Assembly (NCBI GenBank): GCA_017405965.1
Contig: JAFQZK010000004.1
Location: forward strand, 124,001 to 188,000
DNA from: Muribaculaceae bacterium
GTDB lineage: Bacteria; Bacteroidota; Bacteroidia; Bacteroidales; Muribaculaceae
Length of the DNA: 64,000 nucleotides
Direction: 5' to 3'
The position numbers were made by a program, and so were the translations under genes. The notes under the pieces were generated by a model, which was not told the DNA's origin, searched no databases, and worked only from the letters and a program-made list of their open reading frames with translations. This document shows positions 1 through 58,299 of the stretch, in pieces. Numbering within the stretch: position 1 is the first letter of the stretch; each line of letters starts with the position of its first letter.

Positions 1-741
1 CGTCTGGGTGATACCGTCTATATCGAGGGTACCAGCGACTGCAAGGGTTACTTCGCTAACCCCAGCATCCTGTACTGCCGCGCCGGTAGCGGTCAGTTCC
101 AGTCGGCTGAGTCAGGTACGTTCTACACCCGCGTGAGCTCGCCTACCTACATCGGCACCTATGCTGAGTGCTGCTTCATCAAGGCCGAGACCCTCCTCAA
201 GAAGGGTGACAAGGCTGGCGCTTACGATGCCTACAAGAAGGGTGTCAAGGCTAGCTGCGAGCTGATGAATGAGAAGCTGGAAGCATGGGTCGCCGAGGAT
301 CCCAGCCTTGCCGACTGCCCGTCCTTCACCCCGATGACCGACGATGCCATCAACAACTTCGTGGACAACGGTATCGGCACTCAGGCTGAGTTGACCATTG
401 GTCACATCCTCATGCAGAAGCGCATCGCCCTCATGTTCTCCTACGAGATCTGGAACGATATGCGCCGCTATGACTTCGATCCCAACATCTTCTTCGGTTG
501 GAAGATTCCCGCTTACCACTACAAGGTGGCTGCCGCTATGCTGGCTATCCCCGAGGGCAAGCAGTATCGCCGCTGGCGTCAGTGCTCGCACGAGTACAAC
601 TACAACAGCAAGAACCTGCAAGCCATCGGCAGCCAGGTTCCCGGCGCCCGCATGACCGACGGTGAAGGTAAGGAAGTGATGTGGAACCGTCAGGATGACG
701 CTTGGACCATCCCCGTATGGTGGGACAGCAACCAGGAGTAA
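1..741 (+). CDS. SusD/RagB-like outer-membrane lipoprotein, C-terminal part (5' end outside window)
   Basis: The reading frame is open from base 1 to the TAA at 739-741, so this is the last ~246 residues of a longer gene. The visible part has the C-terminal layout of the SusD-like family that partners SusC receptors: a helical TPR-like stretch (GTYAECCFIKAETLLKKG), then an LMQKRIALMFSYEIWNDMRRY segment typical of the family, then a tail rich in Trp, Tyr and Asn ending in VMWNRQDDAWTIPVWW. It most resembles the SusD-like_2 branch, like the gene at 5004. SusD proteins are surface lipoproteins that cap the SusC pore and bind the ligand; the ligand cannot be read from this fragment. A strong terminator follows 30 nt after the stop, so it closes its own operon. 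Confidence 0.85.
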   Translation, partial: RLGDTVYIEGTSDCKGYFANPSILYCRAGSGQFQSAESGTFYTRVSSPTYIGTYAECCFIKAETLLKKGDKAGAYDAYKKGVKASCELMNEKLEAWVAEDPSLADCPSFTPMTDDAINNFVDNGIGTQAELTIGHILMQKRIALMFSYEIWNDMRRYDFDPNIFFGWKIPAYHYKVAAAMLAIPEGKQYRRWRQCSHEYNYNSKNLQAIGSQVPGARMTDGEGKEVMWNRQDDAWTIPVWWDSNQE

Positions 742-770
742 TCCCCCACTCCACTCAACAATAAAAACGT

Positions 771-804
771 CCGCCGAGGCCTCAACGCCCCGGCGGCGTT
801 TTTT
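771..804 (+). terminator. Rho-independent terminator of the upstream SusC/D locus
   Basis: Stem CCGCCG (771-776), an A/C mismatch and GGC, loop CTCAAC, then GCC and CGGCGG (791-796), followed by CG and six T. Almost the same hairpin, with a different loop, ends the next SusC/D operon at 7838-7872. Confidence 0.85.
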
Positions 805-826
805 ATCAAACAACCCACTTTTTTAT

Positions 827-905
827 CAAACAACATGAACAACGTGGAACAACCAGAACAACAAAAAAGGTTGTTGATGTTGTTCATTGTTGTTCATGTT
901 GTTTG
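827..905. repeat. 17-bp perfect inverted repeat with nested repeats
   Basis: CAAACAACATGAACAAC at 827-843 is repeated as its exact reverse complement at 889-905. Inside lie further GAACAAC / GTTGTT copies, so the whole 79 bp can fold as a long hairpin. TTTTATCAAACAAC also occurs twice directly (801-814, 821-834). No gene is visible in it. Confidence 0.7.
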
Positions 906-1073
906 AAAATAGGTGAGATGTTTGATTTTGGTGTTTTTTTGATGTGTTAATTTTGTAAAAAATATGAGGTTAATCTATAATTCAAAAACCAAAAATATCG
1001 CTTTTTCTTTTATAAAAAGGTGGTTTTAGAGTAAAATCACGCCAAAATCGTCATTTTTTTATCAAAATGCTTG

Positions 1074-1101
1074 TTTGGATTAAACTTTTTTTGCACTTTT
1101 G
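1074..1101 (+). promoter_or_regulatory. Possible Bacteroidetes-type promoter of the SusC-OmpA operon
   Basis: TTTG at 1074-1077 and CACTTTTG at 1094-1101, a 16-nt gap. The -7 box matches TAnnTTTG at all but the first base and the spacing is a little short, so this is tentative. Confidence 0.35.
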
Positions 1102-1194
1102 CCTTCCGAAATTCAATTTCTCCCTAAAAAACGTAACTGATAAAGATGAGATATTAACCAATTCATTAACTAATCAATTAAAAGCAAAGTGCGT

Positions 1195-4100
1195 ATGAAA
1201 AAACAATTAGCACTGCTCTGCACACTGGCGATAGCCATGGGAATTCCCGCTGGACTGGTCCCGAACCACTCCAGCACGGGTTTCACGGCTGTGGCCCAGA
1301 GCAACCGAGTTTCGGGCGTCGTGAAGGACGCCAACGGAGAGCCGATGATTGGCGTTAATGTAAGGGTAAAAGGCACAAATACGGGTACGACCACCGATTT
1401 GGATGGCCGATATTCGATTAAGGCCGACCCCAACCAGACGCTTGTCTTCTCCTTTGTGGGCTATGATGCGATCGAAGTTCCTGCGTCACAAGCCGCTAAC
1501 GTTCAGTTGTCCGAAGGCGCCAATACCCTGCAGGATGTGGTGGTAACGGCCGAGTTCGGTATGAAACGTGTCGCCCGCACCGTGGGTTCCTCGGTGCAGA
1601 ACGTGAAGGCCCAGGACATTATCGAGTCGGGCCGCACCGACTTCATCTCGGCCCTGCAAGGTCGTGTGTCGGGTATGAGCGTTGTTAGTTCGGGTGGTGC
1701 CCCTGGTGCCTCAACGACTGTAGTACTGCGCAGTGCCACGTCACTGAGCGGTAACAACCAACCGCTGTATGTCATCGACGGTATCCCCATGAACAACACC
1801 TCGTTCAACCCCACGACTGGTTTGGCAGTTGCCGATGGTGGTTCAGCCCTCGCAGGCAGTGGACTGTCGCCCCGTTCGACCGACTACTCGTCACGTGGTA
1901 ACGACTTCAACCCCGAGGACATCGAGTCGATGACCGTGCTGAAGGGTGCTGCCGCAGCCGCTCTGTATGGTAGTGACGCTTCGAACGGTGCCATCATCAT
2001 CACGACCAAGAAAGGCCGCTCGGGCCGCGCACGCGTGACCTACAGCAACCAGATTACTTGGTCCAAGGCTTATGGTTGGCCCGAGATTCAGAACAAGTAC
2101 ATCAATGGTGCCTATGGTGCAGCGAACTTCTACTACACCAGCCGTTACGGTTCGTTGTATGACGGTTCAATGCCGTTCTATGACAACACGGCTGCTGTGC
2201 TCCAGACTGGTTTCATGCACCGCCACAACCTGTCGATGGAAGCCGGTAACGAGAAGATGTCAATCCGTGCCAGTGCTTCTTACTTCGACCAGGATGGTGT
2301 CATCAAGACCACTAACCTGACGCGTACCAACCTGTCGCTGGCCGGCCGCGCCGAACTGACCAAGTGGTTATCGATGGAAGGCAGCATGCAGTATGTGAAC
2401 GCCAAGAACGATAAGGCCCCGCGTGGTCTCTATGGTCCTGTGCGTTACAGTTACCGCTGGCCCAGCGTGGATGACATGAGCATCTATCTGGCCGAGGACG
2501 GAGCCCACCAGAAGTATCCCGCATACTACACCGACACCGACCTGTTGAACCCGTTGTTTGGCTTGAAGAAGAACCTGATGCACGATGAAACCGACCGCAT
2601 CATCAGCGCTTTCTCGCTGAACTTCACACCCATCGTTCACACCTACCTGCGCTTGCAGATGGGTTGGGACGTGAGCACATCGACCTATGAGACCGGTTCT
2701 CACCCCTACTATGTGAGCGCCAACCAGAGTGTCGATGACAGCAACAACAGCGGTACCTATAATATCACCAAGTACAACACCAACGATCCCACGCTCAACG
2801 TGCTCGCCGGTTATAACAACAACTGGAACGATAAGTTCTCGCTGGGCGTTCAGGTGGGTTACCACCAGTTGGAGAATGGTGTGACCAGCCTTTCATCCTA
2901 TGGTCAGAACTTCAAGGTGATTGACTTCTACAGCATCAACAACTGTACCGAGAGCACCGTAGTCAGCAAGAAGCGCTCCACCAAGCGCCGCGTGCAGGCT
3001 ATCTCGGGTCAGTTAGAGTTGGGCTTCAACAACATGATCTTCTTGACCGGCCGCTTCCGTAACGACTGGTCTTCGACCCTTCCCAAGGACAATAACCACT
3101 ACTTCTATCCCGCCGGCGAGCTTTCAATCGTGCTGAGCGAGATGAAGTTCATGAAGAATATCAACTTCATCAACTACCTGAAACTGCGTGGCGCTATCGC
3201 CCAGGTAGGTAAGGACGCTCCCGTGCTCTCGATCGATCCCGAACTTGAGCCCACTGGCCTGACTGGAGGCGGTTACAAGTATGGCTACACCGGTCCCAAC
3301 CGCAGCCTGAAGCCTGAGATGACCACCTCTGTCGAGGCTGGTGTTGAGGCCCGCTTCTGGAATGACCGCATCAATGCCGACTTCACCTGGTTCCACACTC
3401 ATTGCGCCGACCAGATTGTGACCGGCTTCCGTATGAGTTATGCTACCGGTTTCGTGCTGAACAATATGAACGTGGGTACGTTTAACACGTGGGGCTGGGA
3501 AGGCCACGCCGATGTTGACGTAGTCCGCACCCCTGACGTGCGCTGGAATGTGGGCGTGAACGTGTCTCACACCAACAGTGAGGTGGTTTATCTGCCTGAG
3601 AATCTGGTTGAGTTCTACAATGCCTACACCTGGAACTCGGGTGGTATCCGCAACGGTGTGATGAGGGGACATCCCATCAGCACCGTAACTGGTAACGCCT
3701 ACGAGCGCAACTCTAAAGGCCAGATCCTGATTAACCCGACGACCGGTCTGCCTCGCACAAGTTCTGAATGGAGCATCCTCGGTAACCGTGAGCCCAAACT
3801 CCGCTTTGGTTTCACTACTTCGCTTGACGTTAAGAACTGGCGCCTGAGTGCCATGTTCCAGGGCCGTTACCATGCCGACGTTGTCAACGCTACCATGCGT
3901 GACATGTTGGGCACCGGTCTGAACTGGCTGTCGGTTGACATGCGTGAGAAGGGATTCGTGGTATTCGACGGCGTGCTGTATGACGGCAAGCAGGAGACTG
4001 CCAATCCCACCAAGAACACCATCGCCGTTAACCTGGGCGAGTATGGTTCATACACCTACACTGGTGGTGATGAGGACTGGATCCAGCACAAGATCAACTA

Positions 4101-4902
4101 CATCCGCTGTCAGGAGTTGCGTCTGGCCTACATGTTCTCACGCAACTGGTTGAACCGCGTGACCAAGGGTACCATACAGAATGCCAGCATCTATGCTTCG
4201 GCCAATGACTTGTTCACCATCACTAACTACACGGGTACCGACGTTGCTGGTAACACCATGTCGGCTGCTGCCGGTGGTACCGGTGGTGAGGGTTACGACT
4301 GCTGGTCGCTGCCCACTCCCCGCTCCTACTCGGTTGGTTTGAGCGTGACCTTCGGCTCCAACGAAGAGGCTCCCAAGCCCGCCTATACGAACACTGCAGT
4401 CCTGAACGACCAGATCAATGACCTGCGCGCTCAGCTCGCCAACGCCGAGAACAACTTCAACGGCCGTCTGGCCCAGCTGCAGAGTGACCTCGATGCCGCC
4501 AACCGCGCACTGGCCAACTGCAAGAATGACCTGAATGCTGCCAAGAACGTGAAACCTGCCGTAATCGACAACAGCAAGCAGTACATGAACATCCTGGTTC
4601 ACTACCCCGTGAACAAGACCGCCGTCGGCGTTGATCAGCGTCCCAATGTGGAGCGCATCGCTTCCTACATGAAGAGCCATCCCGAGGCAACCTGCGTCAT
4701 CAAGGGTTATGCTTCGCCCGAGGGCAATCAGGACAACAACATCAAGCTCGCTAACGGCCGCGCCGCCAGCGTGAAGGATATGCTCGTCAACAAGTATGGT
4801 ATCGCCGCCAACCGCATCAAAGCCGATGGCCAAGGTATCAGCAACATGTTCGACGAATTGAGCTGGAACCGTGTTTCGATCTGCGAAATCATCGTGAAGT
4901 AA
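1195..4902 (+). CDS. SusC/RagA-family TonB-dependent receptor fused to an OmpA-like domain
   Basis: 1235 aa. Order: signal peptide (~1-34, ending near VAQS); carboxypeptidase-regulatory-like domain (VSGVVKDANGEPMIGVNV); TonB-box-like DVVVTAEFG; plug domain with LYVIDGIPMNN and VLKGAAAAALYGSDASNGAI; a TonB-dependent beta-barrel to about base 4360. After the usual barrel end comes an Asn/Ala-rich heptad coiled coil (4387-4545) and an OmpA-like domain (4546-4902) with NILVHYPVN, GYASPEG and NGRAASVKDML. SusC receptors are normally ~1000-1100 aa and end at the barrel, so the extra ~170 aa are unusual. OmpA domains bind peptidoglycan; the family Arg is present in NGRAASV, while the usual Asp of the GHTD motif is Ser here. 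The ATG at 1195 is preferred over the in-frame GTG at 1189. It is followed by its SusD partner at 5004. No glycoside hydrolase is adjacent, so the ligand is unknown. Confidence 0.9.
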   Translation: MKKQLALLCTLAIAMGIPAGLVPNHSSTGFTAVAQSNRVSGVVKDANGEPMIGVNVRVKGTNTGTTTDLDGRYSIKADPNQTLVFSFVGYDAIEVPASQAANVQLSEGANTLQDVVVTAEFGMKRVARTVGSSVQNVKAQDIIESGRTDFISALQGRVSGMSVVSSGGAPGASTTVVLRSATSLSGNNQPLYVIDGIPMNNTSFNPTTGLAVADGGSALAGSGLSPRSTDYSSRGNDFNPEDIESMTVLKGAAAAALYGSDASNGAIIITTKKGRSGRARVTYSNQITWSKAYGWPEIQNKYINGAYGAANFYYTSRYGSLYDGSMPFYDNTAAVLQTGFMHRHNLSMEAGNEKMSIRASASYFDQDGVIKTTNLTRTNLSLAGRAELTKWLSMEGSMQYVNAKNDKAPRGLYGPVRYSYRWPSVDDMSIYLAEDGAHQKYPAYYTDTDLLNPLFGLKKNLMHDETDRIISAFSLNFTPIVHTYLRLQMGWDVSTSTYETGSHPYYVSANQSVDDSNNSGTYNITKYNTNDPTLNVLAGYNNNWNDKFSLGVQVGYHQLENGVTSLSSYGQNFKVIDFYSINNCTESTVVSKKRSTKRRVQAISGQLELGFNNMIFLTGRFRNDWSSTLPKDNNHYFYPAGELSIVLSEMKFMKNINFINYLKLRGAIAQVGKDAPVLSIDPELEPTGLTGGGYKYGYTGPNRSLKPEMTTSVEAGVEARFWNDRINADFTWFHTHCADQIVTGFRMSYATGFVLNNMNVGTFNTWGWEGHADVDVVRTPDVRWNVGVNVSHTNSEVVYLPENLVEFYNAYTWNSGGIRNGVMRGHPISTVTGNAYERNSKGQILINPTTGLPRTSSEWSILGNREPKLRFGFTTSLDVKNWRLSAMFQGRYHADVVNATMRDMLGTGLNWLSVDMREKGFVVFDGVLYDGKQETANPTKNTIAVNLGEYGSYTYTGGDEDWIQHKINYIRCQELRLAYMFSRNWLNRVTKGTIQNASIYASANDLFTITNYTGTDVAGNTMSAAAGGTGGEGYDCWSLPTPRSYSVGLSVTFGSNEEAPKPAYTNTAVLNDQINDLRAQLANAENNFNGRLAQLQSDLDAANRALANCKNDLNAAKNVKPAVIDNSKQYMNILVHYPVNKTAVGVDQRPNVERIASYMKSHPEATCVIKGYASPEGNQDNNIKLANGRAASVKDMLVNKYGIAANRIKADGQGISNMFDELSWNRVSICEIIVK

Positions 4903-4913
4903 GTATAAATCAA

Positions 4914-4995
4914 GTTTAGAGTTTAGAGTTTAGAGTTTAGAGTGACTTAAGTTACTAAAAACTAAGGACTAAGGACTAAAAACTAAAAACTAAGA
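4914..4995 (+). repeat. Degenerate heptamer tandem repeats between susC-like and susD-like genes
   Basis: Four GTTTAGA units (4914-4943) are followed, after a short GTGACTTAAGTTA spacer, by repeated ACTAAAA and ACTAAGG units. Similar repeats lie at 58240-58299, in the same orientation relative to transcription, and related CTAATCA units lie near 56660 and 21642. Confidence 0.75.
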
Positions 4996-5003
4996 TATAT
5001 ATT

Positions 5004-6890
5004 ATGAAATCATTCAAATCAATTATACTGTGTGCGCTGGCTTGCTTGGCTATGGGACTGACATCCTGCGACGACTACCTGGATGTGAACAAGAACACCG
5101 ACGCCCCCGACTATGTGGAGGGTTACCTCTATCTGGCGGGTATTCAGCAGGCTTATCAGGGCATCTACTGGGACTTGCGTGCCATCGCGCCGCTCACCCA
5201 GATGATGGGTACCTCGAGCTACACCAACTTTGCCAACCACTACTACACCAAGGCCAGCGATGCCGGTGGTGAGGCTTGGCGCATGGTGTACTGGAACCAG
5301 GGTATGAATCTGGAGAACATGATCGACCAGAGTATTGATGCCGAGAATTGGACATTGGCCGGTATCGGCTTGGCCATGAAGGCCTTCTCTTGGGACCTGT
5401 TGACCAAGATCAACGGTGAGGCTCCCATGAAACAGGCCTATGAGGCTGGACGTCTCGACCATCAGTATGACTACCAGTATGACATCTATCCCCAAGTGCG
5501 CGAGTGGGCCTATCAGGCTATCGAGTACCTGCAGAAGGAGGATAATTCAGCCTATGGTAACCGTATCAAGAACAACGATTTCATGTATAGCGGTGACAAG
5601 GACAAGTGGATCAAGTTCGCCTATGCAGTGATCGCCCGCAACCTGGCCTCGCTGACCAACAAGAAGGACTTCAAGGAGAAATACTACAATGAGTTCATGA
5701 CGGCTGTGAACAATGCCTTTGCCAGCAACGCTGACAATGCCACGCTCAAGATTTGGGGTGGTGGTGCCGACGCTGCCGAGAGTGGCTACAACAACTTCTG
5801 GGGCACCTATCGTGGCAACCTGACCTACAGCTACTTCCAGCATGACTATGCCGTGCAGCTGTTCACGGGTACCATCCGCAAGTATGACGAGCAGGGCAAC
5901 TACATCCAGACCGAGGATACCCTGCCCCTGAACAAGCAGCACTATCCCTACCAGCTGCTCGACAAGCAGATTACCAGCGACACCCTGCCCGATGCCGGTC
6001 ACTTCGACCCGCGCCGCCTCGTGAAGCTGGCTACCACCGATAGCAGCAACTATGCTACCATCGCCGACCGTGAGGTGCTCCGCAGCCTCTACTACGTGGG
6101 CTCTGGCTTCACTGGTGCTACTGGTCCTATCGGCACTGCTCCCTCGTTCTGGGGCCGCAATGCTACGTCCAACACGACCTATGATGGCTCAGGCCACTGG
6201 CTGTATCGCGACGATGCTCCCTATATTATGGCAACCTATGCCGAGTTGCTGTTTGACCTTGCCGAGGTACAGTACAAGTACGGCAACAAGAGCGATGCCT
6301 TCGAGACCTGGAAGAAGGCCCTCGCAGCCGATATGGAGTTCACTGCCGAATATATCGTTGCAGGTACCGTGAACGGTAACTACCGTCAGGGTGACCGTGT
6401 GACCAAGGCCACTTTCAATACCCTGGCTCAGGAGTACCTGAATGGTCCTTATGTAGCAGGTCTGTCACAGAGCGACTTCTCGCTCTCGCACATCATGATG
6501 CAGAAGTATCTTGCCCTCTTCCCCTGGGGCGGCATCGAAGCCTGGGTTGACTTGCGAAAGTACTTCTACGATATCCAGTACACGGGTGAATATCCCAAGT
6601 ATGGCAATGGTTGGGACAAGACGACCCTCGACCAGAAGCTGGATACCGATCCTAACAAGGTTTACAAGGGATTCTGGCTGCAGCCCGCACAGGTACAGGG
6701 TCGCAAGAGCGCCTTCAATGCCGACAACAACGGCTCGCCCTGCTTCCGCCTGCGCCCGCGCTACAACTCCGAGTACATGTGGAACAAGACCAACCTGGAT
6801 GCCCTGTTGCCCATTGGCGGTCAAGAACTTGATTACCAGTGCTCTATCATGTGGTTCTGCTATCCTGGCGATATGCCCACTTCAAGATGA
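5004..6890 (+). CDS. SusD-like lipoprotein (SusD-like_2 branch), partner of the SusC-OmpA receptor
   Basis: 628 aa. A lipoprotein signal peptide ends in MGLTSC, so Cys22 would be lipidated and the protein displayed at the outer membrane. The start of the mature protein (DDYLDVNKNTDAPD), a Met/Tyr-rich helical region and the late motif LSHIMMQKYLALFPWGGIE identify the SusD family, nearest the SusD-like_2 type. It is larger than classical SusD (~550 aa). In this family the protein forms a lid over the SusC barrel and makes the first contact with substrate. The gene lies 101 nt after the receptor, separated by heptamer repeats, and 27 nt before the next lipoprotein gene, so all three are likely one operon. 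Confidence 0.9.
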   Translation: MKSFKSIILCALACLAMGLTSCDDYLDVNKNTDAPDYVEGYLYLAGIQQAYQGIYWDLRAIAPLTQMMGTSSYTNFANHYYTKASDAGGEAWRMVYWNQGMNLENMIDQSIDAENWTLAGIGLAMKAFSWDLLTKINGEAPMKQAYEAGRLDHQYDYQYDIYPQVREWAYQAIEYLQKEDNSAYGNRIKNNDFMYSGDKDKWIKFAYAVIARNLASLTNKKDFKEKYYNEFMTAVNNAFASNADNATLKIWGGGADAAESGYNNFWGTYRGNLTYSYFQHDYAVQLFTGTIRKYDEQGNYIQTEDTLPLNKQHYPYQLLDKQITSDTLPDAGHFDPRRLVKLATTDSSNYATIADREVLRSLYYVGSGFTGATGPIGTAPSFWGRNATSNTTYDGSGHWLYRDDAPYIMATYAELLFDLAEVQYKYGNKSDAFETWKKALAADMEFTAEYIVAGTVNGNYRQGDRVTKATFNTLAQEYLNGPYVAGLSQSDFSLSHIMMQKYLALFPWGGIEAWVDLRKYFYDIQYTGEYPKYGNGWDKTTLDQKLDTDPNKVYKGFWLQPAQVQGRKSAFNADNNGSPCFRLRPRYNSEYMWNKTNLDALLPIGGQELDYQCSIMWFCYPGDMPTSR

Positions 6891-6917
6891 TGTTTTATTA
6901 ATTGATCTAAAAATTCA

Positions 6918-7796
6918 ATGACTATGAAATTTTTCAAATATATAGCATTATTGCTGCTGGTGGCAGTGACGATGGGCTCCTGTGACAAGAAAGACGTCTC
7001 CTACATGGCTGAGCCCGTTGACGAGTCGGCAAAGGCATACATCCAGGTCGGCTACTACGAGCCTGTCACCGCTGGTGCAGCCAATTATATGTACTACATC
7101 GACATCAATGGTGTCGAGTACGGCAACGACGGTGCCACCTTCCTGGCTACCTTCAACACGGTTCCCTCGGGCGGTACCAACCGCTTCTATGCTGTTGATG
7201 CCGGTAATGTGAACATCAAGCTGCACAAGCGTGTGAGCGATGGCAGCGGCGGCTACACCTATCCCGTGGTCTATGACCAGAACGTGAACGTCGAGGCTGG
7301 CAAGCGCTATTGCCTGTATGTGCACGACCTGAACAAGGCACCCATCCCCATCGAGATGACGCCCGCTCCCGAGTTCGGCAAGGCTCTCGATACCGACTCG
7401 CTGTGCCGCGTTCACTTCGTCAACCTGCTCTATGAGGCTGACGGTACGCCCTACAGCGGCAAGGTGCAGTATGGTGTTCAGAACCTGGACACCAAGGAGT
7501 ACGAGCCCGTGGGTGAGCCCATCGGCTTCGGTGAGAGCACCAAGTGGTTCACTGTAAAGATCCGCAAGACCGTTTACAACAGTAGCGGTTCACAGCGTCG
7601 TGAGGTTTGCCTCTTTGCCGTGGATAACAATGGCAATGTAACCGGCAAGCTCCCCTACACCCTGTCAAACGGCAACACGGGTGAGTTCACCGACTACTGG
7701 ACCTGGTACATCGGCCGTGCTTATCGTCAGATTGCCGCCGGTAACTGCGGTAGCAAGAGCATCCGTTGCACGCTGTATCAGTTCGTGGTCGAGTAA
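6918..7796 (+). CDS. DUF4397-like lipoprotein in the SusC/D operon
   Basis: 292 aa. The signal peptide ends in TMGSC, giving a lipidated Cys at about residue 22. The rest is beta-rich with short repeats of the type seen in DUF4397 proteins (YYIDINGVEYGN, RFYAVDAGNVNIKLHKR, then a second module after residue 160). I read it as an accessory surface lipoprotein, possibly ligand-binding, made together with the receptor and its lid; no catalytic motif is visible. ATG at 6918 or 6924 could both serve as start. A strong terminator follows at 7838. The DUF4397 assignment rests on pattern resemblance and is moderate. Confidence 0.7.
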   Translation: MTMKFFKYIALLLLVAVTMGSCDKKDVSYMAEPVDESAKAYIQVGYYEPVTAGAANYMYYIDINGVEYGNDGATFLATFNTVPSGGTNRFYAVDAGNVNIKLHKRVSDGSGGYTYPVVYDQNVNVEAGKRYCLYVHDLNKAPIPIEMTPAPEFGKALDTDSLCRVHFVNLLYEADGTPYSGKVQYGVQNLDTKEYEPVGEPIGFGESTKWFTVKIRKTVYNSSGSQRREVCLFAVDNNGNVTGKLPYTLSNGNTGEFTDYWTWYIGRAYRQIAAGNCGSKSIRCTLYQFVVE

Positions 7797-7837
7797 ACAA
7801 GCAGGGGCATTCCCCCTACCCTATCAATTAAAAACGA

Positions 7838-7872
7838 CCGCCGAGGCTTCACTGCCCCGGCGGCGTTTTTTA
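7838..7872 (+). terminator. Rho-independent terminator of the SusC-OmpA operon
   Basis: CCGCCG, A, GGC, loop TTCACT, GCC, C, CGGCGG, then CG and six T. Stem bases are identical to those at 771-796; only the loop differs. Confidence 0.85.
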
Positions 7873-7916
7873 TAGTAACAACTGAGATTTCAATCCTCTG
7901 AGATCTCCGAGCTCCC

Positions 7917-9056
7917 TTATTCTTCGGGTTGCGGCGTGTCGATTTCAATGACCGGGGCCGTCTCGAGCAGACTGCGGTAGAGGTCGGTCATCTTCTTGTA
8001 GAAGGCGGGGTAATCGAGGCTGTCCTCAAAATCCTTCTGGGCCTGGGTGCCCATGCGGCTGCGGCTGGCCGTATCGCTGATGAGCCGGTTGATGGCATCG
8101 GTGAGTGCCTGCACGTCGCCAGGAGGCACCAGCAAGCCGTTCACGCCGTCATGCACATACTCGGGCTGGGCACCGTTGTTGCTGCAGATATGTGCCTTGC
8201 CGGCCATCATATACTCCAAGTTGCTGATTCCCAGGGCTTCAGGCTGGATTGACGGCAGGATGCCGAAGTCGGCCTGACGCAGATATTCAAGGATGTTGTC
8301 GCGGAATCCCAGCAGCGACACGTTCTGGACAAGTCCGTTGGCAACGATGAAACCCTTGATTTTAGCCTTATATTTGGGCTGTCCTTCGCCGATGATGGCC
8401 AGATGGTACTTGGTCTTGTCCACATGGGTTAATGCGCTCAGAAGGGCATCCAGGCCCTTTTCGGCGGCCAATTTACCATGGTACATGATCAGCGCCTGAT
8501 GGCTGTCGAGTTCCAGTTCGCGTCGCAGGTCAGGCACCTGAGTGCCGATTTGGCTGTCGCAGACGCTGTCACGCAGCACGACTGTGCGGTCGGCATAGGT
8601 CTTTTTGGCCTTGCCCAGGAACGCCTCACGGGCCATCTCCGACGAGAAGACGAAGCAGTCAATGGATTTGTACAACTTGGTGTACATGTAGTTCTTTTTA
8701 GGCTTGTAAACACCATGCACGCTCACCACAACGCGGGTGTCGCGGTTCTCGCTGATGCGACGCGCCATCACCGCCATGAATGCATCCCTGAAACTGTGCA
8801 CATGGATGATATTCTTGCCCTTGCGCAGCAGACGCGCGAAACGCACGGGCGAGTCGATATCGGTCACGCCCTTGAGCGGAAGGATGGAGATGGGTATCTC
8901 CAGGCGGCGGTATTGCTTGAGCACATTTTGGTGCTTGCGGCATACGACCTCGACATAGAAGTCATCGTCGTTGCGCAACCGTTCCACCAGGTCATAGGTG
9001 TATTGCTCGGCACCGGTCCAGTGCTTGTTGGATACGATATGGAAAACGTTAATCAT
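7917..9056 (-). CDS. Family-4-type glycosyltransferase (GT-B fold)
   Basis: 379 aa. The N-terminal half has HIVSNKHWTGAEQYTYDL, a glycine/acidic loop typical of GT4 acceptor domains; the C-terminal half has HGKLAAEKGLDALLSAL, LLGFRDNILEYLRQADFGILPS and the EX7E catalytic motif (Glu273 and Glu281 in EALGISNLE), followed by NGLLVPPGD. Such enzymes transfer a sugar from a nucleotide donor in the cytoplasm, often for capsule, O-antigen or glycolipid synthesis. The acceptor and sugar are not readable. It stands alone on the minus strand, with a -7 box at 9122-9129 and no polysaccharide cluster around it. Confidence 0.9.
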   Translation of the reverse strand: MINVFHIVSNKHWTGAEQYTYDLVERLRNDDDFYVEVVCRKHQNVLKQYRRLEIPISILPLKGVTDIDSPVRFARLLRKGKNIIHVHSFRDAFMAVMARRISENRDTRVVVSVHGVYKPKKNYMYTKLYKSIDCFVFSSEMAREAFLGKAKKTYADRTVVLRDSVCDSQIGTQVPDLRRELELDSHQALIMYHGKLAAEKGLDALLSALTHVDKTKYHLAIIGEGQPKYKAKIKGFIVANGLVQNVSLLGFRDNILEYLRQADFGILPSIQPEALGISNLEYMMAGKAHICSNNGAQPEYVHDGVNGLLVPPGDVQALTDAINRLISDTASRSRMGTQAQKDFEDSLDYPAFYKKMTDLYRSLLETAPVIEIDTPQPEE

Positions 9057-9121
9057 CTGTTAATTAGATTTTTATAGTCAAATCTCAACATGAGTCGCAG
9101 TATTCTCTTCACCACAAACCA

Positions 9122-9129
9122 CAAAGATA
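9122..9129 (-). promoter_or_regulatory. -7 promoter element for the glycosyltransferase
   Basis: On the minus strand the box reads TATCTTTG, a perfect match to TAnnTTTG, about 65 nt before the ATG. No clear TTTG lies at the expected upstream spacing. Confidence 0.55.
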
Positions 9130-9181
9130 CAAAAAAAATTGCATTTCTCCCCCACCACGCAAGTTTTTCTGGAATGCTCAC

Positions 9182-9209
9182 AAAAAAACACCGGGGCAAT
9201 ACCCCGGTG
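9182..9209 (-). terminator. Rho-independent terminator after the SPFH/NfeD pair
   Basis: CACCGGGG (9189-9196), loop of 5, CCCCGGTG (9202-9209), with a run of A at 9183-9188 that becomes the U tract for minus-strand transcripts. Confidence 0.8.
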
Positions 9210-9247
9210 CTTTAGTTGGTTCGGAAAGCAGGCTTTCCCCTACCCGA

Positions 9248-10213
9248 CTACTCTTTCTTGTCAGCTCCGAAGAGTTCCTTGATGCCGCCGATGGATCCCA
9301 GCAGATTGGTGGCCTCATACGGCAGATAAACCGTCTTGGTCTTGTCGCCGCTGGCAACGGTATCAAGCATCTGGATGTACTTCTGGGCCAGCAGGTAGTT
9401 GGCAGGATTGGTGCTCTGCCCTACTGCCTGGGTGATCCTGTCGATAGCGATAGCCTCGGCTTCGGCCTTGCGGATGCGAGCCTGGGCCTCACCTTCGGCA
9501 CGCAGGATTTCGGTCTGCTTGTCGGCCTCGGCCTGATTGATACGAGCCGTCTTCTGACCCTCGGACTGGAGGATGGCAGCCTGTTTCTGACCTTCGCTGG
9601 TCAAGATGGTGGCGCGCTTGTTACGCTCGGCCTGCATCTGCTTCTCCATAGCCTGAAGCACGGTTTGAGGCGGCTGAATGTCCTGTAACTCAACACGATT
9701 CACCTTGATACCCCACTTGTTGGTGGCGTCATCGAGGACGGCACGCAGCTTGGAGTTGATGGTGTCGCGCGATGTCAGCGTCTGGTCCAGCTCGAGTTCA
9801 CCGATGATGTTACGCAAGGTGGTCTGCGTCAGTTTCTCGATAGCGTTGGGCAGGTTGTTGATCTCATACACGGCCTTGAACGGGTCCATAATCTGGAAAT
9901 ACAGCAAGGCGTTGATCTGCGTCATGACGTTATCCTTGGTGATCACGTTCTGCTTGTCGAAGTCGTACACTTGTTCACGCAGGTCGATCACATTGGTGGT
10001 GCGGTAACGTCCGTGCTCATAGGCCACAATGCTCTTGGCGCGGTCGATGAAAGGGATAATCACGTTGATGCCGGGCTTGAGCGTAGCATAGTATTTACCC
10101 AGGCGTTCGATAATCTTGGTCTCGCTTTGCGGAATGATCACCAAGCTGTTCTTCACGAGAATCAGCGCCAGCAGGATAATGACGATAAGGAAAATTGTTA
10201 ACGTGGATGGCAT
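9248..10213 (-). CDS. SPFH/band-7 (stomatin-like, QmcA-type) membrane protein
   Basis: 321 aa. One N-terminal transmembrane helix (about residues 4-20), a band-7 domain (SLVIIPQSETKIIERLGKYY through roughly residue 200), and a long Ala/Glu/Gln-rich coiled coil with repeated SEGQKQAAIL and AEGEAQARIRKAEAEA units, as in stomatins. These proteins assemble into large cages or microdomains in the membrane and often work with an NfeD partner. The NfeD gene lies immediately upstream (41 nt apart, same strand), which supports the assignment. A terminator follows at 9182-9209. Confidence 0.93.
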   Translation of the reverse strand: MPSTLTIFLIVIILLALILVKNSLVIIPQSETKIIERLGKYYATLKPGINVIIPFIDRAKSIVAYEHGRYRTTNVIDLREQVYDFDKQNVITKDNVMTQINALLYFQIMDPFKAVYEINNLPNAIEKLTQTTLRNIIGELELDQTLTSRDTINSKLRAVLDDATNKWGIKVNRVELQDIQPPQTVLQAMEKQMQAERNKRATILTSEGQKQAAILQSEGQKTARINQAEADKQTEILRAEGEAQARIRKAEAEAIAIDRITQAVGQSTNPANYLLAQKYIQMLDTVASGDKTKTVYLPYEATNLLGSIGGIKELFGADKKE

Positions 10214-10254
10214 AATATTATAGTTTTAATCGTTAATAATGTCTGTTGATGATT

Positions 10255-10713
10255 TTATTCGGCCGTTACTGGCTCAACAGTGAGAATGATGCTGTTCATC
10301 TTCACGACACGCACGCGCACGTCTTTGTCGATGGCAGCGCCGTCAACACCCTGAGCTTTCCAGTCGTCACCGTCGATGGCTACACGGCCATAGCCGCCAG
10401 CCTCGATAGGTTCACTCACGCGACCCTCCTGCCCTATCATGGCCTCGGCATTGCTCAGACGCACGCGTTCGGGCTTGTGCAATTTCTTGAGCAGGGCCGG
10501 ACGCACAAGCAACAGGCTCAAAGCCGACACCACGGCAAACAGGATGATCTGCCAAGTGAGCGACAATCCGCAACCGGCAACAATGGCACTCACGGCTGCA
10601 CCGATGGCGAAACACAAAATGAAGAAATCACCTGATGATAATTCCAGGATGAGGCACAAGATGGAAATGGTTACCCAAATCAGCCACAGGTTGGATGTGA
10701 AAAAGTCAATCAT
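10255..10713 (-). CDS. Short NfeD-family membrane protein
   Basis: 152 aa, the size of the short NfeD type without the ClpP-like protease. Three hydrophobic segments (about 5-25, 28-48, 50-70) are followed by a C-terminal OB-fold domain (MIGQEGRVSEPIEAGGYGRV, then a DWKAQGVD segment and RVRVVKMN). Members pair with stomatin-like SPFH proteins and are thought to shape membrane microdomains; the SPFH gene follows 41 nt downstream. Confidence 0.88.
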   Translation of the reverse strand: MIDFFTSNLWLIWVTISILCLILELSSGDFFILCFAIGAAVSAIVAGCGLSLTWQIILFAVVSALSLLLVRPALLKKLHKPERVRLSNAEAMIGQEGRVSEPIEAGGYGRVAIDGDDWKAQGVDGAAIDKDVRVRVVKMNSIILTVEPVTAE

Positions 10714-11210
10714 AGCTGTATCTTTTTTAGTGATTATTGTTTTTTATTCTCTCTTTCACTTTTTAGACGCATCAACTAAACAAAAAACTACACTTGTTGA
10801 TGCTTTTTTTTCATTAATTCGTCACCAGACGAGAAATTTTCATCATCGGCTCTCTAAAAAAACTGTATCAAGGAGGTGATCGGCAGCCATCTCCAATGGT
10901 AGGGCTTTTTCTCTTTGATATGCAAATTTTATGCCAAATTACTTCAAAAATCACTGCACAGTTTATCGGCTGCTCCCGAATTTTGCATTCTCGCGGGGTT
11001 AAAATGACGTTTTTGGCTGTAATTCAGCCATTTTAGCGTTTTCTCGGTTTTAGTCAGAAAAATCGGGAAGGGGAGAGTTGCAGCCCTAAAACCCCAAGAA
11101 CAGCATCAAACGGCACAAGTTAGGCTACCTGACGTCAAATCTTGGCATTTTATGCTTGTTTATGAAAAATATGTGTTATCTTTGTGTCTCGTTTTTCAAG
11201 AACAGAAGTA
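10714..11210. other. Intergenic region between nfeD and ybeY
   Basis: Divergent-gene spacer of about 500 bp. GCATCAAC (10769-10776) pairs with GTTGATGC (10796-10803), followed on the plus strand by eight T, resembling an orphan plus-strand terminator. AAGGAGGTGATC at 10870-10881 is a perfect complement of a canonical 16S 3' end. GGCTG/CAGCC around 11016 makes a small hairpin. A 46-codon frame from 10896 follows the SD-like site at a poor distance and shows no protein-like features. Confidence 0.5.
11155..11184 (+). promoter_or_regulatory. Promoter of the ybeY-mnmG-apt-uvrC operon
   Basis: -7 box TATCTTTG at 11177-11184 with CTTG at 11155-11158 (18-nt gap). Transcription would start near 11190, which excludes the GTG at 11184 and fixes the ybeY start at the ATG of 11211. 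Confidence 0.7.
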
Positions 11211-11651
11211 ATGACCGAAATCAACTACATGACCCAAGGCAATGTCACCTTGCCCAACCTCAACGAGCAAGTCGTGCAAGAGTGGATTGTTGCCGTCGCC
11301 GCCTCCTTGAACCAGAAGGTGGGCTGCTTGACCTATGTCTTCTGTGATGATGATTTCATCCTGGAGACGAACCGTCAGTTCCTGGGACATGACTATTACA
11401 CCGACATCATCACCTTTGATTACACCAACTCGCGACACATCGCCGGCGACATGGTCATCTCGCTGGACACCGTGCGAACCAATGCCGAGGGATTAGGCAC
11501 GCCCTATGAGACCGAACTCATGCGCGTCATCATCCATGGCGTGCTCCACCTGTGCGGCATCAACGACAAGGGCCCCGGCGAACGCGAGATTATGGAACAG
11601 CACGAGAACAACGCTCTGGCTATTCTTCCCGACAACGTATTCAAGAAATGA
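11211..11651 (+). CDS. ybeY: Endoribonuclease YbeY (16S rRNA maturation factor)
   Basis: 146 aa, normal length. YbeY is a metal-dependent endoribonuclease for rRNA 3'-end maturation and ribosome quality control. The signature block reads IHGVLHLCGINDKGPGE: the first two zinc-binding His of HGxLHLxGYDH are present, but the third His position is occupied by Asp, a substitution I believe is common in this phylum. An upstream motif DIITFDYTNS corresponds to the family's DVLSFP block. The ATG at 11211 lies 27 nt after the -7 box. The stop overlaps the mnmG start (ATGA), indicating translational coupling. Confidence 0.93.
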   Translation: MTEINYMTQGNVTLPNLNEQVVQEWIVAVAASLNQKVGCLTYVFCDDDFILETNRQFLGHDYYTDIITFDYTNSRHIAGDMVISLDTVRTNAEGLGTPYETELMRVIIHGVLHLCGINDKGPGEREIMEQHENNALAILPDNVFKK

Positions 11652-13525
11652 ACAACGACTATGATGTGATAGTGGTAGGTGCCGGCCATGCCGGCTGCGA
11701 GGCTGCTTGTGCAGCAGCCCGTTTGGGTTCCCGTACACTGCTCATCACCATCGACATGAACAAGATTGCTCAGATGAGCTGCAATCCGGCTGTTGGCGGC
11801 ATCGCCAAGGGACAGATTGTGCGCGAAATCGATGCCATGGGCGGTCAGATGGGTATCGTCACCGACCGCAGCAGCATACAGTTCCGCATGCTCAACCGCA
11901 GCAAGGGACCAGCCATGTGGAGTCCGCGTTCACAAAGTGATCGTCAGCAGTTCATCCTGGAATGGCGCAAGGTGCTTGAAAACATGCCCAACCTGTACAT
12001 GTGGCAAGATTCAGTCAACGAATTTGTCATCGAGGGTGGGGTAGTGAAGGGTGTAAAAACCGCTCTGGGCATCACTTTCAACACCCAGGCCGTCGTCCTC
12101 ACGGCAGGCACTTTCCTGAACGGATTGATGCACGTGGGGCCCGTCAAAACCCCCGGAGGGCGCGTTTCTGAACCTCCTGCAACGGGCATTACCGAGCAAC
12201 TGGCTTCGCTGGGATTCAACGTCGGCCGCATGAAAACGGGCACACCGCCTCGCCTCGACGAGCGCTCAATCGACTTCTCGCAGTGCATCCGCCAAGACGG
12301 CGAACAGGATTTCCATCATTTTTCCTACCTGCCGGGCATCACTTCCACACTGCCGCAACGCCCCTGCTGGATTGTGCACACCAACGAACAGGTGCACGAG
12401 GTGCTGGAAAAAGGCTTGCCTCAGTCGCCGCTCTACAACGGCCAGATTACGAGCATCGGCCCCCGTTATTGCCCCAGCATCGAGACCAAGATCGTGACCT
12501 TTGCCGACAAGACATCGCACCAACTCTTCATCGAACCCGAGGGTGCCGACACCCACGAGATGTACCTCAACGGCTTCTCATCATCGCTGCCGTGGGAGGT
12601 GCAGATCGAGGCATTGCGACACATCCCGGCACTGAAGGATGTGCATGCTTTCCGTCCGGGCTATGCCATCGAATATGACTTCTTTGACCCGACACAGTTG
12701 TCACACACATTGGAGTCAAAGATCATCAAGAACCTGTTCCTTGCAGGACAGGTGAACGGCACGACCGGCTACGAGGAAGCGGCAGGGCAGGGACTCATCG
12801 CCGGCATCAACGCCCACCAGAACATCACGGGAGGCGAGCCTTTCACCCTGTCACGCAACGAGGCCTACATCGGCGTCCTCATCGACGACCTGGTGACCTG
12901 CGGTGTCGATGAACCTTATCGCATGTTCACTTCGCGTGCCGAGCACCGCATCCTGCTGCGCCAGGACGACGCCGACATGCGCTTGACCGAGAAGAGCTAC
13001 CGACTGGGACTCGCCACACAGGAGCGCTACCAATACATGTGCTCCAAGCGAGAGCAGATTGAACGCCTCACGACTTTCTGTCGCGAGTACACGGTAAAGA
13101 CTGCCTTGATCAATCCGCTCCTGGAGCAGCAGGGTATGCAACCCTTGACCCAAGGTCAGCGACTGCACGACTTGCTGCTGCGCCCTCAGCTGAACATGAT
13201 GCTGCTTGCCGAGGCCTTGCCCGACCTGAAAGCACAGATCGACGCCCTTGAGGACGCCCGTCGCGAGGAGATCGTCGAGGCGACCGAAATCGCCATCAAG
13301 TACCGCGGCTATATCGAACGTGAGACTCAAATCGCCGACCGCGTGGCACGCCTCGATAACGTCACCCTGAAAGGTAAATTCGACTACTCACAAATACATC
13401 AGATTTCGACCGAAGCGCGCCAGAAGCTTCAGGCCATCGACCCCGAGACGGTAGGGCAGGCATCACGCATTCCCGGCGTCTCACCCAGCGACATCAATAT
13501 TCTGCTCGTCCTGTTGGGCAGATAA
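11648..13525 (+). CDS. mnmG: tRNA uridine-5-carboxymethylaminomethyl(34) synthesis enzyme MnmG (GidA)
   Basis: 625 aa, full length. FAD-binding N-terminus DVIVVGAGHAGCEAACAAAR, then MSCNPAVGGIAKGQIVREID and FRMLNRSKGPAMWSPRSQ, all hallmarks of MnmG. With MnmE it installs the cmnm group on U34 of certain tRNAs. The C-terminal helical domain is present to the end (IPGVSPSDINILLVLL). The start is placed at the ATG overlapping the ybeY stop; upstream in-frame codons lie inside ybeY and add no homologous sequence. A parS site lies immediately after its stop. In many bacteria mnmG is near the replication origin, which fits the parS sites. Confidence 0.97.
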   Translation: MNNDYDVIVVGAGHAGCEAACAAARLGSRTLLITIDMNKIAQMSCNPAVGGIAKGQIVREIDAMGGQMGIVTDRSSIQFRMLNRSKGPAMWSPRSQSDRQQFILEWRKVLENMPNLYMWQDSVNEFVIEGGVVKGVKTALGITFNTQAVVLTAGTFLNGLMHVGPVKTPGGRVSEPPATGITEQLASLGFNVGRMKTGTPPRLDERSIDFSQCIRQDGEQDFHHFSYLPGITSTLPQRPCWIVHTNEQVHEVLEKGLPQSPLYNGQITSIGPRYCPSIETKIVTFADKTSHQLFIEPEGADTHEMYLNGFSSSLPWEVQIEALRHIPALKDVHAFRPGYAIEYDFFDPTQLSHTLESKIIKNLFLAGQVNGTTGYEEAAGQGLIAGINAHQNITGGEPFTLSRNEAYIGVLIDDLVTCGVDEPYRMFTSRAEHRILLRQDDADMRLTEKSYRLGLATQERYQYMCSKREQIERLTTFCREYTVKTALINPLLEQQGMQPLTQGQRLHDLLLRPQLNMMLLAEALPDLKAQIDALEDARREEIVEATEIAIKYRGYIERETQIADRVARLDNVTLKGKFDYSQIHQISTEARQKLQAIDPETVGQASRIPGVSPSDINILLVLLGR

Positions 13526-56625: not shown

Positions 56626-56701
56626 GCGAGCCCCGCTCGCATCAACGCGTAAGCCTCACTAATCACTAATCTCTAATCACTAATCAGCGAGCTTCGCTCG
56701 C
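56626..56701. repeat. GCGAG hairpins flanking CTAATCA simple repeats
   Basis: GCGAGccccGCTCGC (56626-56640) and GCGAGCttcGCTCGC (56687-56701) bracket repeated CACTAATCA/CTCTAATCA units. The second hairpin ends one base before the stop of the minus-strand gene, so it may terminate that gene. Confidence 0.65.
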
Positions 56702-58239: not shown

Positions 58240-58299
58240 TCTCTAAACTCTAAAGTCTAATCTCTAAAGTCTAATCTCTAAACTCTAAACTCTAAACTA
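58240..58299 (-). repeat. Heptamer tandem repeats between two minus-strand genes
   Basis: Repeats of CTCTAAA/GTCTAAT/CTCTAAA on the plus strand, i.e. TTTAGAG on the coding strand, the same unit and orientation relative to transcription as at 4914. Confidence 0.75.

Follow-up and report, generated by a model that had tools for sequence, protein, structure and literature searches.

SusC-type receptors with an OmpA-like C-terminal tail: putative wall-anchored importers in a genus of Muribaculaceae

OmpA tethers its own barrel to the cell wall. The OmpM proteins are described as binding peptidoglycan and as nutrient channels in one, and as absent from the Gracilicutes (PMC10628300). In the Bacteroidota, PorE, a protein with an OmpA-like domain, has been proposed as a tether (PMC12204202) and is said to bind peptidoglycan in vitro (PMC12204202, PMC5053529). 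SusCD complexes are reported to be dimers (PMC7782687), and contact between ExbD and peptidoglycan is reported to be necessary for Ton action (PMC10771500). The part taken by the cell wall in TonB-driven import is an open question. A literature search covering open-licence papers returned no description of a fusion between SusC and OmpA.

The window (the whole stretch of DNA analysed, 64,000 nucleotides of contig JAFQZK010000004.1, Muribaculaceae bacterium assembly GCA_017405965.1) contains a gene that a first-pass annotation had read as a SusC-type receptor continued in frame by a coiled coil and an OmpA-like domain. Its features, and those of its neighbours, are given in Table 1. Profiles and the structure model bore out the three domains as parts of one real gene. 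TIGR04056 (SusC/RagA TonB-linked outer membrane protein) scored 634.9 bits against a curated cut-off of 368.25, and the Pfam families PF13715, PF07715 and PF00593 were found in the expected order from the N- to the C-terminus. The proposed OmpA-like nature of the C-terminus was confirmed by PF00691, which scored 40 bits on the tail against a cut-off of 27.2, and by the OmpA-like fold of the tail's structure model. The heptad pattern of the stalk was significant. Five Pfam families matched the protein, none of them SLH, and no small N-terminal OmpA barrel was found with Pfam or NCBIfam, the N-terminal part being filled by the SusC plug and barrel. By family the product is a SusC/RagA TonB-dependent importer, with import activity predicted.

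The frame of this gene is already open from a GTG at 1189. For the third gene, searches of Pfam and NCBIfam returned nothing, and no PDB hit was better than E 0.2; Rfam gave zero matches in positions 1-12000 of the window. Much of the gap between the SusC and SusD genes is taken up by tandem repeats, AGTTTAG at 4913-4943 (4.4 copies) and ACTAAAA/ACTAAGG-like units at 4954-4995; further heptamer arrays lie at 56656-56686 and 58241-58298.

Table 1. Coordinates of the tailed SusC gene, its parts and its neighbours, as positions in the window
Feature	Position	Strand	Remarks
Tailed SusC/RagA receptor gene	1195-4902	+	SusC, then a 53-residue helix, then an OmpA-like domain
N-terminal export region with the start; this tailed SusC is of type i	1195..1308	+	Signal peptide by eye only
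Carboxypeptidase-regulatory-like domain PF13715, N-terminal	1309..1545	+	Residues 39-117, 65.6 bits
TonB-dependent receptor plug PF07715	1576..1992	+	Residues 128-266, 64.1 bits
SusC beta-barrel, last strand SVGLSVTF	1993..4353	+	TIGR04056 to residue 1053; untailed orthologues stop there
Short linker from barrel to stalk	4354..4386	+	
Coiled-coil-like stalk, a single 53-residue helix in the model	4387..4545	+	Exceeds the aligned donor OmpA stalk by about two heptads
OmpA-like domain PF00691	4576..4899	+	Profile match and fold
Ser codon aligned with Asp271 of A. baumannii OmpA	4714..4716	+	Alignment
Arg codon aligned with Arg286 of A. baumannii OmpA (residue kept)	4759..4761	+	Alignment
SusD-like partner PF12771	5004..6890	+	86.2 bits; gene adjoins the tailed SusC
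Third gene, by eye like a lipoprotein, with MGSC close to the N-terminus	6918..7796	+	

Seventeen SusCs above the cut-off were found in the source genome (G000; other G labels denote further genomes and L labels loci), of which three are tailed. The other 14 have no OmpA match, in agreement with the earlier statement that SusCs end at the barrel. The same genome has eight OmpA-domain matches, three of them in frames of 1242-1282 aa within about 14 kb of contig C37. Tail matches were obtained in 38 of the 101 genomes of the genus (37 plus G000), with at least two in 35 of these 38 by hand count. A contig scan of the named genomes gave 74 distinct loci from the best 80 of 103 confirmed matches, all assigned by position to 36 genomes. 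A single frame of at least 1000 aa was present at 67 of the loci; four of the other seven are cut by a contig end, and in three (L046, L060, L065) the barrel frame is interrupted. Goat, buffalo, roe deer or sheep is named in the record titles of six of the 36 genomes, and most of the other named carriers are labelled SRR or RUG, the latter presumably standing for rumen uncultured genome. Wider scans were run with the four best candidates per genome scored. Outside G000 no fused frame was found among the matches listed for 393 genomes of the order or the rows listed for 395 genomes of the phylum (sets that overlap partly and both contain G000), and for 397 genomes of the family all listed tailed frames came from the genus of G000; with four candidates per genome in these scans, and eight in the barrel searches below, members can escape, and distant OmpA tails would. 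Tailed SusCs, which bear an OmpA stalk, are a real and conserved SusC variant.

An assembly artefact, against which the first-pass annotation had argued, was rejected as the cause of the fusion: such an error is very unlikely because three of the 17 SusCs of the source genome are tailed and tail matches occur in more than a third of the genomes of the genus. At a finer scale, near-identical tails seem to break assemblies, and two contigs end inside the tail (L095; the second frame of L194). At least three tails stop short of the end of the OmpA domain (L089 and L193, both of G211, and L194 of G199). The two in G211 lie on one contig and are truncated near the same point, perhaps as an assembly effect of near-identical tails. 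Apparent swaps of tails between SusC types in the tail/OmpA tree (L050; L085 and L191; L046-L048; L051 and L095) may in part be assembly chimeras, since near-identical tails seem to disrupt assembly; the main claim is independent of them.

Four barrels were searched against the 101 genomes of the genus with eight candidates per genome scored, and both tailed and untailed orthologues were recovered. Identity to the window's type i barrel was 91-100% for full-length tailed and 65-76% for untailed proteins. From the barrel-search lists 71 untailed orthologues, belonging to sister species, were picked; 68 of them finish with the last barrel strand, the point from which tailed proteins run on. Of the rest, L129 is cut off by a contig end, and L134 and L182 break off early within the barrel. 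Types were assigned by short motifs and best BLAST match. Among 146 barrel rows (76 tailed and 70 untailed, after leaving out eight rows of 700 aa or less and the duplicates L188, L190 and L192), five SusC types each had tailed and untailed members. Other SusCs with the same tail, as envisaged earlier, are thus found in five types and 38 genomes. In the FastTree barrel tree eight changes of state, each undirected, were counted: four in type ii and one each in types i, iii, iiib and iv. The tailed barrels of type ii do not form one clade (AU p 2.1e-05, with the long row L155 removed beforehand; type ii has three changes without L155 and four with it). The placement of L155, on a long branch, is unsure, and it may be a separate type. 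L155 (G164:C38:47200-51100) is a divergent untailed type-ii-like SusC, 51% identical to the nearest tailed row, and is the sole untailed row from a tailed genome among the barrel rows. A sixth, related type, which shares 37-39% identity with type iv, lacks the tail in eight tailed genomes (the source genome included) and in G212. Gene order is partly common to the two states, the divergent types ii and iii being adjacent in tailed (G000, G191) and untailed (G151, G185, G176, G193) genomes.

The relative of the tail is the C-terminal half of the OmpA of the same species group, coiled coil included. In a 133-row tree, 83 tails and 50 standalone OmpAs were separated by one change. A more careful 82-row tree was built from 42 OmpAs, with eight long, distant or short OmpA rows left out, and 40 of the 83 tails, most of them drawn at random. 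Here the tails formed one clade (99/97), and the tails together with the OmpAs of the tailed group, G212 and G177 were set apart from eight other OmpAs of the genus (100/98); the latter branch had an SH-aLRT of 80 in the larger, outgroup-rooted tree of 133 rows. In 33 of the 38 tailed genomes a standalone OmpA could be read. On alignment, the helix of the tails exceeds that of OmpA by about 14 residues, and the IN-x-LR motif and the domain are 56-61 residues apart in the 83 tails vs 47-52 in OmpA (34 parsable proteins of 50). Within genomes, 41 paralogue pairs (each frame longer than 1100 aa, with a single one taken per type and genome) had barrels 27-52% identical and tails 62-90% identical. 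Both states occur in five types with eight changes between them, yet the tails are one clade beside the OmpA of the same group; most simply, therefore, an OmpA stalk seems to have been copied onto one SusC once and then to have spread across neighbouring SusC genes. That the tail is a copy of the resident OmpA stalk, common to several SusCs, goes beyond the first-pass annotation. An ancestral tail that was lost in the sister species is disfavoured because, within the genus, the tails fall together with the donor OmpAs. G212 and G177 (94% and 57% complete) have the donor-type OmpA and no tail match at the tail threshold; in G212, moreover, barrel types i-iii had no match at E 1e-150, and type iv had one of only 38%. 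The whole tailed-SusC cluster may be missing from G212, since its donor-type OmpA is accompanied by neither a tail match nor a close barrel of types i-iii.

Asp271 of A. baumannii OmpA contacts DAP. By alignment, Asp271 of this DAP clamp is replaced by Ser in the tail and Arg286 is kept, and both the Ser and the Arg occur in every one of the 46 rows of an alignment of 21 tails and 25 standalone OmpAs. The substitution that had been noticed at the window is therefore real and yet not peculiar to its protein: as the standalone OmpAs in the alignment carry Ser as well, the change was inherited from the donor OmpA and is not specific to the fusion. With Ser in place of the DAP-contacting Asp the wall contact of the tail may be weak or different, and any such effect on binding would apply to the donor OmpA too. 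When the type i protein was compared with 15 orthologues (one of them, from G211, a truncated copy), the Nei-Gojobori dN/dS lay between 0.08 and 0.15 in the barrel and between 0.11 and 0.25 in the tail, values which show purifying selection on the tail.

This protein joins a SusC/RagA importer in frame to what seems a copy of the periplasmic half of the resident major OmpA, and on balance we think it likely that this copy holds the SusCD complex to the wall and that the stalk was spread by recombination. Tethering to the cell wall, the first of two ideas of the first-pass annotation, is retained as the best explanation, and the tailed SusCs are probably, as their putative function, tethered importers; the OmpA profile and fold, the kept Arg, the occurrence in 38 of 101 genomes, the single tail clade, the selection and the OmpM precedent argue for it. 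From the domain order and the known topology of such barrels we infer a periplasmic tail, as in OmpA. With the barrel's C-terminus in the periplasm, the helix would carry the OmpA domain to the peptidoglycan layer, where it would hold the SusCD complex to the wall in the way that OmpA holds its own barrel and OmpM the porins of diderm Firmicutes. The importer would then double as an outer-membrane tether, and the wall would give it a fixed position near the Ton motor. Neighbouring SusC genes could acquire the stalk via recombination within the cluster. Doubtful, though conceivable, is a broader form of this claim, in which a set of TonB importers has been made wall-anchored by the copied stalk, the principle of OmpM being re-invented, with the anchor as a counter-hold for TonB and the stalk as an exchangeable module. 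Counted against tethering are the poor AF2 model of the whole protein (pLDDT 59.0), the lack of a tail in most SusCs of the source genome and in the sixth SusC type, the truncated tails, the Ser in place of the DAP-contacting Asp, a tail dN above the barrel dN in 14 of the 15 type i comparisons, and the nature of the 36 named carriers, which by title are MAGs or uncultured isolates.

The tail might serve envelope stability only, the abundant SusCs being extra barrels that bear OmpA stalks while import is unaffected. Because the resident OmpA is retained, read from the great majority of the tailed genomes, the stalks have been multiplied and not moved, and nearly all of these genomes have at least two tail matches; however, 14 of the 17 SusCs of the source genome have no tail, and we regard this explanation as unlikely. 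A slim chance is given to energy coupling, the other idea of the first-pass annotation, in which the tail would fix the receptor against the pull of TonB or keep it beside wall-bound ExbD. This would suit the reported need for contact between ExbD and peptidoglycan (PMC10771500), but the same barrels have untailed orthologues in sister species.

The significant heptad pattern in the stalk, the dimeric state reported for SusCD complexes (PMC7782687) and the Ser in the pocket would all suit a coiled coil that pairs or clusters receptors, with an OmpA domain that no longer binds peptidoglycan. The domain has nevertheless been retained with its Arg under purifying selection, and the donor OmpA has the Ser as well, so that receptor pairing is quite improbable. 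Least credible is a tail that is a functionless by-product of recombination: tails do look exchangeable among neighbouring SusC genes, and at least three are truncated, but the tail is under purifying selection and persists on five types of SusC in 38 genomes from different species.

Within one genus, related species have orthologous receptors that differ in bearing or lacking a tail of a wall-binding type, which makes a natural comparison. It would allow a direct test of what wall anchoring does to import, to the mobility of the receptor and to the shedding of vesicles. The tailed SusCs also show one domain spreading across several transporter genes of one cluster.

Among known proteins, the best PDB match by sequence was the SusC BT2264 (PDB 5fq6; BT2261-2264 SusCD of Bacteroides thetaiotaomicron; E 2.1e-89, residues 102-1051), which was also the best Foldseek match for the whole model. 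As in that system, a SusD gene follows the window's SusC, but the match stops at residue 1051 and the stalk and OmpA domain lie outside it. These have their counterpart in the standalone OmpA of the source genome (C15, 414 aa from Met), whose coiled coil and OmpA domain are the same, with 59% identity over tail residues 24-180 and 65% over the last 110 aa; in OmpA the aligned stalk is shorter and a smaller barrel stands ahead of it in place of SusC. PorE (PG1058, Porphyromonas gingivalis) is likewise described as a multidomain protein of the Bacteroidota with a C-terminal OmpA-like domain, which in the published accounts is preceded by TPR, propeller and CRD domains and not by a transporter barrel (PMC12204202, PMC5053529). 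Alike in principle is OmpM of Veillonella and other diderm Terrabacteria, described as combining a nutrient channel and a peptidoglycan-binding periplasmic stalk in one protein (PMC10628300), the binding by the SusC tail being putative. OmpM is given there as a trimeric porin with an N-terminal SLH domain, whereas the tailed SusC is a TonB-dependent receptor with its OmpA domain at the C-terminus.
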